This document shows positions 8,691 through 13,039 of a stretch of 64,000 nt of DNA, in pieces. The first letter of the stretch is position 1. Every line of letters begins with the position of its first letter. Below the pieces are notes generated by a model. That model made no database searches and was not told the origin of the DNA. It saw only the letters and a list, made by a program, of their open reading frames with translations. Where the stretch lies: positions 84,811-148,810 of the forward strand of contig JAJZDX010000009.1 of assembly GCA_021805865.1 (NCBI GenBank), given 5' to 3'. The position numbers and the translations under genes are program-made. This DNA comes from Pseudomonadota bacterium. Its GTDB lineage: Bacteria; Pseudomonadota; Gammaproteobacteria; Steroidobacterales; Steroidobacteraceae.

Positions 8691-9293
8691 ATGGCCGAAA
8701 AGCACGAAATCCGGAAGGTCGCGGCCTATGTCCGCGTGAGCACTGGCGGACAGGATACCGCCATGCAGATGGCCGATATCCACAAGCTGGCGGACCTGCG
8801 GGGCTGGGAAATTGCCGCTGTCGTCGAGGAGAAAGCCTCCGGTGCCAAGACCCGGCCGGCCCGGGAGCGCCTGATAGCCGAGGCGAAGGGCGGCGCATAC
8901 GACGCTGTATGCGTCTGGAAGCTCGACCGCTGGGGCCGCTCGACCGTGGACGTACTGACGACGGTCATGGATCTAGACGCGGCTGGCGTGGCGTTTGTGA
9001 GTGTGCAGGACAGTATCGACATGACGACGGCCCAGGGGCGGCTCATGGTGCAGCTCCTCGCGGCCTTCGCCGAGTTCGAGCGGGCACAGATTCGCGAGCG
9101 CGTCACGGCTGGATTGAAACACGCCAAGCGGGCCGGTACGCGATCTGGCAAGGCTATCGGCAGGCCACGGACGGCGGAGGAGCGCCGGCCGCGTATCGAG
9201 GCTTTGGTGGCTCAGGGAGTGCCGTTGCCGGAGATTGCCATGCGCCTCGAGATGCCCTACAGCTCCGTGCATCGGATCGCGCGCCACAAGTAA
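8691..9293 (+). CDS. Serine recombinase of the resolvase/invertase family
   Basis: AAYVRVSTGGQDTAMQ catalytic motif; WKLDRWGRS; GRLMVQLLAAFAEFERAQIRERV; C-terminal HTH. Confidence 0.95.
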   Translation: MAEKHEIRKVAAYVRVSTGGQDTAMQMADIHKLADLRGWEIAAVVEEKASGAKTRPARERLIAEAKGGAYDAVCVWKLDRWGRSTVDVLTTVMDLDAAGVAFVSVQDSIDMTTAQGRLMVQLLAAFAEFERAQIRERVTAGLKHAKRAGTRSGKAIGRPRTAEERRPRIEALVAQGVPLPEIAMRLEMPYSSVHRIARHK

Positions 9294-9399
9294 CTCTCGC
9301 CTCGCCGCCGGCCTTCAGCGCCGCGATCATTCCTTGTCGGCATCCTGACACTCTCGAAGCGATCGCCGCTCCTACGCCATCCTGCGCGGCCCTGCAGGG

Positions 9400-9823
9400 T
9401 GTCATTGCTCTCGCGCGGCTGACGGAGGAGACGGAGTCTCAATCGGCGCAATCTGCGCCAATTGAAAGCAAGCGCAAAGACGGTAAGGGCCACCGGAAAG
9501 AATCCGGGGTACGGAAAGCCGCTCGCGAGCTTGGCGTCGAAAAGGAGGACGCCCGCCGTGCCGATGAGTCAGTTTCGGCGCAGATTGCGCCAAAACTCAG
9601 GGAGGGAAAACCGGGTCAAAATGGCCCAGTTTCAAAACCCAAAGGCGGAAGAGATAAGACATCTGGAATCCGGACGCCATCTCGCGAGTGGATCGGATTT
9701 ACAAAGCAGGCGGATCAATCGACACAATCTGTGTCAATTGAAAGCAAGCGCGCGGATAGACGCAGCCATAGGAAAGTGGGGCAATCTGCCCCACTAAAGC
9801 CCCGCCTGCGGGGTGCCGCATGA
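9400..9823 (+). pseudogene. Fragment resembling a ParB/RepB-family C-terminal region, interrupted by palindromic repeats
   Basis: APIESKRKDGKGHRKESGVRKAARELGVEKEDARRAD resembles phage/plasmid ParB-family proteins; no N-terminal ParB domain in frame; second degenerate copy STQSVSIESKRADRRSHRK. Confidence 0.45.
9439..9795. repeat. Palindromic repeat family 3, four hairpins with ATC/GAT loops
   Basis: TCAATcGGCGCA-ATC-TGCGCCaATTGA (9439), AGTTTcGGCGCA-GAT-TGCGCCaAAACT (9571), TCAATcGACACA-ATC-TGTGTCaATTGA (9715), AGTGGGGCA-ATC-TGCCCCACT (9775). Confidence 0.85.
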
Positions 9824-10271: not shown

Positions 10272-10874
10272 GTGAGCGCAACAAAGGGCCGGAGAACCGG
10301 CCGCTGCACAATCTGCCAGCATCCTGAACGGTTCCGGATGGAGCTTCTGCTCGTGTCCGGCGCCGGCCGGCGGGCGATTGCCCGTAAGTTCCACGTGAGC
10401 GCCGACGCTGTTTGGCGACACGGCAAGAGTCATATCACCGACGAGCAGCGAGCACAGATGCTCTGCGGCCCGGTGAAGCTCCGCGAGCTGGCCGAGAAGG
10501 CCGCCGACGAGGGGTTGAGCCTGCTCGAATACTTGAATCTTTTGCGATCGTCTGCCTTGACGCATTACTTGGCCGCTGGCGAGGCGCACGACATGCAGAC
10601 GGTCAGCGTCCTGCTCGGACGCTTGACAGACCTCCTGCGGCTCCAGGGCCAATTCACGGGCGACCTCGGGCGGGCGACGGCGAACGTCACGAACAACACC
10701 CTGGTCCTGGCATCCCCGGCCATGGCCGACTTCGAAGACCGGCTTATCGGCTGGCTCAAGCCGTACCCCGACGCGCTACGGAGCGTGCTGGCCGGCCTGC
10801 AGGAATGGCGCACCGCCAAGCTCGGACTGCCCGCACCGGGCCGTGACCCGGCCATCTTGGAGCACTGCCCATGA
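10272..10874 (+). CDS. HTH protein, putative terminase small subunit
   Basis: CTICQHPERFRMELLLVSGAGRRAIARKFHVSADAVWRHGKSHI; overlaps start of large terminase. Confidence 0.6.
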   Translation: MSATKGRRTGRCTICQHPERFRMELLLVSGAGRRAIARKFHVSADAVWRHGKSHITDEQRAQMLCGPVKLRELAEKAADEGLSLLEYLNLLRSSALTHYLAAGEAHDMQTVSVLLGRLTDLLRLQGQFTGDLGRATANVTNNTLVLASPAMADFEDRLIGWLKPYPDALRSVLAGLQEWRTAKLGLPAPGRDPAILEHCP

Positions 10875-13039
10875 CCCACGAAGATGATGATTTTCTGCGG
10901 CGCCTCGAGCGGCGGCTCTCAGGTGAGCTGACGCGCGATCGCGCGACCCTGGTTCCCGAAGCGTTTCGGGTGCTTTGGGAAACCGTCCGGTTCATCGTGC
11001 TATATGGCGGTCGCGCCGCTGCCAAGAGCTGGTCGATTGCCCGCGTGCTGCTCGTGCAGGCTCACGATGCGCCGCTGCGCGTGCTCTGCTGCCGCGAGAT
11101 CCAAGGCAGTATTCGCGAGTCCGCATATCGACTTCTCGCCGATCAGATTGTGATGCTTGGTTTGGATGACTTTTACGAAGTGCAGGCCGACCGCATCATC
11201 GGCAAGAACGGGACCGTGTTTTACTTCGAGGGCTTGCGCTACAACGCTTCTAAAATTCGCAGCTATGAAGGCGTTGACATTGTTTGGGTCGAGGAGGCGC
11301 AGTCGGTTTCTGAGTTGAGTTGGGAGACGCTGCTCCCGACGATCCGCAAGCCGGGCAGTCGATTCTTCATCTCGTTCAACCCGATGACGAAGACCGACCC
11401 CGTACTGCTGCGGTTCGTCGAGAATCCGCCGCCCGGCTGTCTTGTCAAAAAAGTCAGCTATCGCGATAACCCGTATCTGTCCCCCGAGGCGGAGGCCGAG
11501 CGCCAATGGCTCGAAAAGACCGACCCCGATGGCTACCGGCACGTTTGGGAAGGTTTCCCGCGCGAGGTATCGGATGCGCTGATTTTGCGAGGCAAGTACG
11601 TCGCAGAATCCTTCGAGGTATCGCCAGCCTGGGCCGGTCCATATCACGGGCTTGATTACGGCTTCGCCCGCGACCCCTCCGCTGGGGTCCGCTGTTACGT
11701 TGCCGATGTAACTCGCACGCTCTATGTCGATCGGGAATTTTGGGCACTCGGGGCGGATATCGACGCATTGCCGGGATCACTTGAGAACTCGATTCCCGGT
11801 ATCTCTCGCCATGTTGTCTACGCCGACAGCGCGCGGCCCGAGTCAACGTCCTACATCGCGCGCAATGGGATACCGGGCTGCCGCTCGGCCGACAAGTGGC
11901 CGGGGTCCATCGATGATGGAATCGCATACTTGCGATCATTCGAGCGCATCGTTATCGATCCGTCATGCCGACATCTTTTGGACGAATGCGGGGCATACTC
12001 ATTCAAGCAGGATCGGCTAACCGGCGCGCCGCTCCCCGAGGTGCTCGACGCCAACAATCATTGCATCGATGCACTGCGGTATGCGTTGAGTCCGCTCATT
12101 CGGAACAAGGCAGCGGGGGCTGGTTCTTACTTCGCTCGTTCCGCCTTGCTGGTCAATGGCGAGGCCCTGGCGATTCCGCGACCGTATGCGGAAGGCAAGC
12201 CCCGTTATGTTGCCGTCATCGCCGCAGTCACGCCCGAGCCCGGAAGCGCCATCGGATTTGTGCACATCGGCTGGTCTGTCGGCGTTGGTTGGCCGCTGCT
12301 GATTCTCGATTGGAGCGTCATCGAGTACGCCGACCTGCGCGAGGAGACGCTGGTTGATGTATTCGTGCGCGCGCAGGAACTCAGCGAGATCACCGGCGCT
12401 GCCGATCCGGTCACGACGATCTTTGCCGAGGAGCCGTTGTGCTCGGCGCTCAAGACGGTCTCATGGCGAATTCTCGGAAACCGGGCCGGTCCGCCGTGGG
12501 ACCTGCGCCTGCTTGTTTCAACGGAGTTGCCGGCAACGCTCGATGAGCGCGCCGCTCAAGTGCGCGAGATGGTCAATTTGGGGCTGAGCACCAAGATTGC
12601 GCACCCCGCCTACGCGCGGCAAACGCCATTCCGCGCGGTTACGGGCAATCACTTGATGAGCCAAGTTCTGGGTTACAAGCCCGGAAACACTGACACCGAG
12701 CGTTCATTGCTGGCGGCCTTCGTCACTGCCGCGTGTGGTTGCCTCCTCAATTCGCCGCGATCGGCTAACACGGCAGCCGTGCCTCCCGTCATCACTCCTT
12801 CAACGCATGACTCGGAAGTGAGGACGCATCGCGTTATGCAGTATGAGAGCGACCTGGCGGCGTACCGCGAAAAGGAAAAAGCCGCGATTGCCGCGATTCA
12901 AAAAAAACTCGGCGATCCGACTTGGCGCCCGCTTTCGCGGCTCGCACTGGGGCTCGGGCCGCCGCCGATCAATCCCGCGTATGGCGCGCGGCTCCCTGGC
13001 GAAGTGGTGCAACACATGATCGATGAGGGCTGGTCATGA
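10871..13039 (+). CDS. Terminase large subunit with ~290-aa extra C-terminal region
   Basis: Walker A VLYGGRAAAKSWSIAR, VWVEEAQSVSELSWETLLPTIRKPGSRFFISFNPM, GLDYGFARDPSA nuclease motif. Confidence 0.85.
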   Translation: MTHEDDDFLRRLERRLSGELTRDRATLVPEAFRVLWETVRFIVLYGGRAAAKSWSIARVLLVQAHDAPLRVLCCREIQGSIRESAYRLLADQIVMLGLDDFYEVQADRIIGKNGTVFYFEGLRYNASKIRSYEGVDIVWVEEAQSVSELSWETLLPTIRKPGSRFFISFNPMTKTDPVLLRFVENPPPGCLVKKVSYRDNPYLSPEAEAERQWLEKTDPDGYRHVWEGFPREVSDALILRGKYVAESFEVSPAWAGPYHGLDYGFARDPSAGVRCYVADVTRTLYVDREFWALGADIDALPGSLENSIPGISRHVVYADSARPESTSYIARNGIPGCRSADKWPGSIDDGIAYLRSFERIVIDPSCRHLLDECGAYSFKQDRLTGAPLPEVLDANNHCIDALRYALSPLIRNKAAGAGSYFARSALLVNGEALAIPRPYAEGKPRYVAVIAAVTPEPGSAIGFVHIGWSVGVGWPLLILDWSVIEYADLREETLVDVFVRAQELSEITGAADPVTTIFAEEPLCSALKTVSWRILGNRAGPPWDLRLLVSTELPATLDERAAQVREMVNLGLSTKIAHPAYARQTPFRAVTGNHLMSQVLGYKPGNTDTERSLLAAFVTAACGCLLNSPRSANTAAVPPVITPSTHDSEVRTHRVMQYESDLAAYREKEKAAIAAIQKKLGDPTWRPLSRLALGLGPPPINPAYGARLPGEVVQHMIDEGWS

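Follow-up and report, generated by a model that had tools for sequence, protein, structure and literature searches.

The window, a 64,000-nucleotide stretch of DNA, includes a prophage in which a cluster of palindromes lies in an open frame between the genes for a serine recombinase and the terminase large subunit (Table 1). The TGA of this frame (9296–9823) overlaps the ATG of a small ORF at 9820. On its own the frame had neither a Pfam nor a PHROG match, and upstream of its HTH both an N-domain and a plausible start codon are missing. It is counted as ParB-like because its homologues identify it. The sequence-only reading, an earlier note made from the letters alone, had spoken of a ParB-like reading frame; the ParB nature holds through the homologues, but only a fragment is present, and the frame is best seen as the remnant of a phage ParB-like gene.

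Table 1. Coordinates of the features discussed, in window positions
Feature	Position	Strand	Sequence or remark
Second ParB-like ORF	4360–5223	−	Matches PHROG ParB-like families
Even palindrome in linker of second ORF	4953–4982		CAACCTTAGAACCA-TG-TGGTTCTAAGGTTG
Serine recombinase (resolvase/invertase type)	8691–9293	+	PF00239, E 3e-43; phrog_125; adjoins the frame upstream
Open frame with linker/HTH remnant	9296–9823	+	N-domain absent
Palindromic site 1	9439–9465		TCAATcGGCGCA-ATC-TGCGCCaATTGA; linker type QSxQxxPIESKR
HTH remnant of ParB-like protein	9506–9562	+	GVRKAARELGVEKEDARRA; immediately 3′ of site 1; from translation and homologues
Palindromic site 2	9571–9597		AGTTTcGGCGCA-GAT-TGCGCCaAAACT; linker type VSxQxxPKL
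Degenerate site	9608–9632		AAACCGGGTCA-AAA-TGGCCCAGTTT; linker type KPxQxxxVSKGG
Palindromic site	9715–9741		TCAATcGACACA-ATC-TGTGTCaATTGA
Palindromic site	9775–9795		AGTGGGGCA-ATC-TGCCCCACT
Phage terminase large subunit	10871–13039	+	Prophage context

Palindromes in the broken ParB-like frame

Four hairpins had been reported in this frame, and all are present with the loops, the mismatch and the compensated changes described, save that the third ends at 9597 and not at 9596. A fifth copy at 9608–9632 had been overlooked; it is imperfect and weaker than the other four, with an RNA-fold z-score of −2.8. Translated from 9296, the frame does give the peptides quoted for the hairpins, and amino acids do differ (A>T, A>V and P>S) through the two compensated changes that set the copy at 9439 apart from that at 9715. 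Four palindromes with a score of at least 9 fall within 9430–9800, compared with a mean of 0.017 and a maximum of 1 in 300 dinucleotide shuffles, and with a mean of 0.03 after synonymous codon shuffling of the frame.

An intact phage ParB-like gene (L186/L238) carries a perfect version of the site 1 palindrome in its linker, and the VSxQxxPKL linker type of site 2 was also found in L019, L027, L032 and L041. The best explanation for the window is that the protein is broken and that the five sites left are a decayed cluster, putative relics of several linker types. The adjoining recombinase gene and 15-nt inverted copies at 9445–9459 and 9577–9591 might suggest instead that the palindromes are crossover sites (res or invertase) of this recombinase. 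We regard this as hardly credible: homologous palindromes occur at loci without an annotated adjacent recombinase (e.g. RcapMu and StopSmel), and their odd 3-nt centre is unlike the 2-bp core that Hin/Gin-type sites have. Elsewhere in the window, a strong 16-bp hairpin at 56574–56609 (GCCCGGCCAGGCGCGA-GGCC-TCGCGCCTGGCCGGGC) is a possible terminator.

Linker palindromes in phage ParB-like genes

Searches with the window fragment gave next to nothing (by tblastn, no match in plasmids and one weak match in phages; no relatives in the viral-contig scan), and intact homologues were therefore taken as queries. Intact relatives were gathered from viral contigs, GTDB genomes and annotated phages, with fragments included among the IMG/VR loci; a Mu-like single-protein search led to four loci. 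In the alignment (A1), a ParB N-domain (WEIAENLHRAELT) comes first, followed by a variable linker and then an HTH (GINAASRELGIERTDAQRA), and this order of N-domain and HTH is also seen in the model (helices 137–145 and 149–159). The N-domain resembles Noc (7ol9, E 2e-13) and ParB (6t1f, E 9e-12); the best fold match of a phage homologue was Noc 7nfu, and the KorB fold was also matched. The phage homologues belong to the ParB/Noc CTPase-HTH family, with a Noc/ParB/KorB fold, and the evidence relating to CTP consists of the sequence motifs G-x-H-R and ENLHR. The ParB-like gene belongs to the early genes and has a divergent repressor nearby in StopSmel, Aussie, POA1180, phage EW and the Mycobacterium prophage GD57-2.

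The genes fall into four groups. Most genes have one linker palindrome, which in group I takes the form ...CA-NNN-TG..., and group II, which is distant and from another class, has longer palindromes with arms of up to 18 bp (L147) and compensated changes that are synonymous, for example GAG/TTC to GAA/TTT (L146 compared with L151 and L152). Group III consists of Mu-like phages, with linker palindromes in RcapMu, StopSmel, Aussie, POA1180 and RR1-B. Even-length palindromes (group IV) are found in Vibrio phage eugene, Staphylococcus phages EW and IMEP5, and phiAH14a. A clear linker palindrome was absent from the ParB-like genes of Staphylococcus phage 85, Rhodovulum, Gordonia, Leptospira, Lactobacillus and Enterococcus.

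An even-length linker palindrome is also present in the second ParB-like ORF of the window. Searches for relatives of this ORF in viral contigs, in plasmids and in 340 genomes from the class gave none, and we tie it to the even palindromes because phiAH14a, Vibrio phage eugene and the Staphylococcus phages have them. Around it, at 4320–5260, are five repeats akin to AATTCCCATGCGATTCTG; a short palindrome precedes each one and differs between them (TTATCCGGATAA, TTGTGTTCACAA, TTATTCGAATAA, TTGTTCGAACAA and TTGTTTTAACAA), and these may be arrays of symmetric sites. Three direct repeats at 4040–4240 likewise follow even palindromes that differ from repeat to repeat (TTTGAATTGCAATTCAAA, TTTGATGCCGGCATCTAAA and TTTGATTCCGGAATCTAAA), and the changes are again symmetric.

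For comparison with chance we used 120 distinct genes, comprising 90 phage or prophage ParB-like genes (groups I–III) and 30 chromosomal parB controls. A linker palindrome with a score of at least 8 was found in 43 of 55 group I, 21 of 23 group II and 10 of 12 group III genes, or 74/90 overall as against 4/30 for chromosomal parB (Fisher p 1e-11). Mean scores were 9.4, 11.2 and 9.9 for groups I, II and III and 6.3 for the chromosomal controls, and synonymous-codon shuffles gave about 5.8 in all groups. Odd-length palindromes accounted for 70 of the 74. Loss of the stems in homologues had been named beforehand as the observation that would count against the sequence-only reading; a clear palindrome (score at least 8) was missing in only 16/90 genes.

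These comparisons support the earlier suggestion that constraint lies more on the nucleic acid than on the peptide: palindromes stay while peptides vary, they exceed the synonymous-codon shuffles, and group I occasionally uses another codon phase. In groups I and II the palindrome centre lies mostly in one codon position, with the exceptions in group I, and therefore the peptide is also not free; a Gln codon can account for the purine that comes first in the group I loop. Near-palindrome symmetry, as in parS, is present in the linker sites, and covariation suggests recognition by the HTH. The chromosomal 16-bp parS consensus, TGTTNCACGTGAAACA, is not matched, as the linker sites are variable, mostly odd and, in group I, CA-NNN-TG centred. 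Searches of the flanking DNA for extra copies of each group I site gave one weak site (L054), and an iteron-like, many-copy origin is unsupported in the intact genes. Symmetric compensated changes and perfect long arms are also what quasipalindrome correction yields, in which replication slippage on imperfect palindromes perfects them without selection. Templated mutation of this kind is a very improbable account, as it leaves unexplained the confinement to one linker of phage ParB-like genes, the rarity in chromosomal parB and the correlation with the recognition helix.

Outer arms go with the type of linker peptide (VSxQxxPKL, KPxQxxxVSKGG, QSxQxxPIESKR and others, as sorted by eye), and the inner half-site goes with the HTH. 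Linkers come in discrete types that differ in outer arms and peptide, as might be expected of mobile or recombinogenic palindromic cassettes (compare the Rickettsia palindromic elements and hairpin recombination sites) that enter or shuffle linker and HTH, with binding secondary. Such cassettes could also account for one linker type being shared by unrelated ParB-like proteins (the QSxQxxPIESKR linker is found in L231, which has a different HTH type), for the inverted loop orientation between copies, and for the arrays in remnants without an intact protein (five copies in the window, five in L015 and two in L234). The five palindromes of L015, from Ancylobacter crimeensis (2735–3027), are mostly near-perfect, with inner arms GGTCA or GGGTCA, and lie in differing frames; no intact ParB-like gene was seen in this 6-kb locus.

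We nevertheless doubt strongly that mobility is the primary explanation. A protein-blind scan of IMG/VR with one outer-arm type plus three downstream bases returned 11 stretches, of which seven were palindromes in ParB-like linkers, tandem pairs among them; the other four were two near-identical weak palindromes elsewhere and two non-palindromes. In this test of dispersal, with one outer-arm type and in viral contigs only, clear palindromes were thus confined to ParB-like linkers. A search of the window's own genome for the palindrome gave copies in the window only, and inner half-sites go with the HTH. Cassettes may be compatible with the palindromes being DNA sites, as the route by which site and helix are exchanged jointly.

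Covariation of the half-site with the recognition helix

We numbered half-site positions from the centre, with TG at k2–k3, and measured covariation by mutual information with a max-statistic permutation and the N-domain as internal control; the statistics ignore kinship, as no explicit tree was used. Outside the linker, the strongest mutual information with half-site bases was found for HTH columns 128, 129, 139, 140 and 143. Bases k4–k6 covaried with columns 139, 140 and 143, and k6–k8 with columns 128 and 129. No covariation with the half-site was detected in 82 N-domain columns, and 0 of 410 N-domain pairs passed the permutation compared with 5 to 7 HTH pairs. Among 36 group I proteins with the main HTH type, His143 went with A at k6 (6/6 versus 0/30, p 5e-7) and Arg139 with C at k6 (18/20 versus 4/16); TGACG was the usual partner of Ser-Glu-Pro, and TGCGCC that of Arg-Thr...Gln.

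In an AF2 model of L019 (pLDDT 94.4), columns 139, 140 and 143 correspond to residues 149, 150 and 153, where the recognition helix makes its first turns, and columns 128 and 129 to residues 138 and 139 at the start of the HTH. Caulobacter ParB contacts DNA through Q162, and its R173, which is Q in Noc (Q158), touches base 1 of parS and sets specificity (PMC7383237). By ungapped alignment on the LG-x-x-R motif, column 139 would be the equivalent of R173 and column 128 that of Q162. A natural swap is provided by the Rhodobacter capsulatus phages RcapMu and RcWaterboi, whose ParB-like proteins, gp13 and gp11, are 88% identical and differ mainly in a single block, consisting of the linker palindrome and the HTH helix. 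Site and HTH are adjacent and could be inherited jointly, yet non-contact HTH columns and flanking helices give little signal. The outer arms (k8–k13) track the linker type and not the HTH, and they exceed the length that a parS half-site requires.

The sequence-only reading had favoured a folded nucleic acid as the constrained structure, and this part of it was not supported. A hairpin of RNA (or single-strand DNA), in which pairing is what is kept and the folded linker controls how the mRNA is translated or decays, or how the protein folds, has several observations in its favour: all copies give good RNA folds (z −2.8 to −4.6), stem covariation is widespread, many group I palindromes have an unpaired 3-nt centre, and the 18-bp arms of L147 exceed the requirement of an HTH dimer. 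However, we consider it unlikely. Pairing is maintained while base identity, above all in the inner stem near the centre, tracks recognition-helix residues of the protein that the gene encodes, something not expected from pairing alone. Positions flanking the centre, where a hairpin loop cannot pair, were complementary in 33/58 cases versus 25% expected under constraint on the stem alone, a figure somewhat inflated by choosing the best palindrome. Sense-strand mismatches showed no excess of G-U (6 G-U type, 15 A-C type and 19 others), some group IV sites are even palindromes without a loop, and there was no Rfam match at E ≤ 1.

A candidate self-encoded site and its precedents

It is probable, on the sequence evidence, that every palindrome serves the ParB-family protein of its own gene as a double-stranded DNA site, a reading favoured because of the helix covariation, the mismatches without G-U bias and the complementary centre. 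The sequences themselves display the linker position, the symmetry and the excess of the palindromes, the covariation of inner half-site with helix, and the joint replacement of site and helix in close phages. The palindrome is best read as a putative self-encoded parS-like site, and its compensated changes as co-evolution with its own protein. With the ParB N-domain (CTPase fold) encoded on one side of it and the HTH on the other, this linker site would be bound by a protein dimer through both HTHs. It could then serve as the nucleation point of the protein, possibly as a CTP clamp, in the phage early operon, following the precedent of ParB, Noc and KorB; by extrapolation from these, the nucleated protein may regulate this operon or organise phage DNA. 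A parS-like loading site and simple autorepression are about equally likely. Points against a DNA site are the genes without a clear palindrome, the window's lack of an intact cognate protein, and arrays such as L234 with sites of differing inner sequence beside one HTH.

To our knowledge, no KorB operator lies within the korB linker. KorB of plasmid RK2 is otherwise similar in being a ParB-family clamp and repressor with an odd palindrome and a matching fold (PMC11790492; PDB 8qa8/8qa9). In Bacillus subtilis, the ParB site parS-359 lies within the parB (spo0J) gene (PMC4442127) and is likewise a palindromic ParB-family site inside the gene of its binding protein, which in the phages is predicted. 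However, parS-359 belongs to a set of several conserved 16-bp parS sites, whereas the phage linker sites vary between phages, covary with the HTH and lie between N-domain and HTH, usually with no second copy seen in the flanking DNA searched. Phage lambda gene O contains the ori-lambda iterons (PMC6022878), which are also inverted-repeat sites embedded in the gene of the protein that binds them (here, is predicted to); lambda O initiates replication, has a different fold and has its four iterons in a cluster, in contrast to a ParB-family protein with usually one site per intact gene. The Noc/ParB fold and the alignment of covarying column 139 with R173 (Q158 in Noc) are shared with the ParB/Noc pair and its parS and NBS sites, but those sites are near-constant and two bases apart, whereas the phage sites are hypervariable and gene-borne (PMC7383237).

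ParB/parS and a parS inside B. subtilis parB are already known; new is the routine embedding in the linker together with a co-diversifying helix. The literature searched, a scope that excludes preprints and most subscription papers, gave no account of palindromes in the linkers of phage ParB. We tentatively propose, as a long shot, that phage ParB-like genes are lock-and-key cassettes in which site and helix are swapped jointly to give private addressing, and that remnant arrays are decoys or sinks. If this is true, the private addressing would amount to incompatibility or immunity groups, and chromosomal remnant arrays with several specificities would trap the ParB-like proteins of incoming phages. 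The ParB recognition code becomes directly testable, and orthogonal ParB/site pairs are on offer as tools. Temperate phages have many orphan ParB-like proteins, and the linker palindromes give a concrete handle on the binding targets of these.
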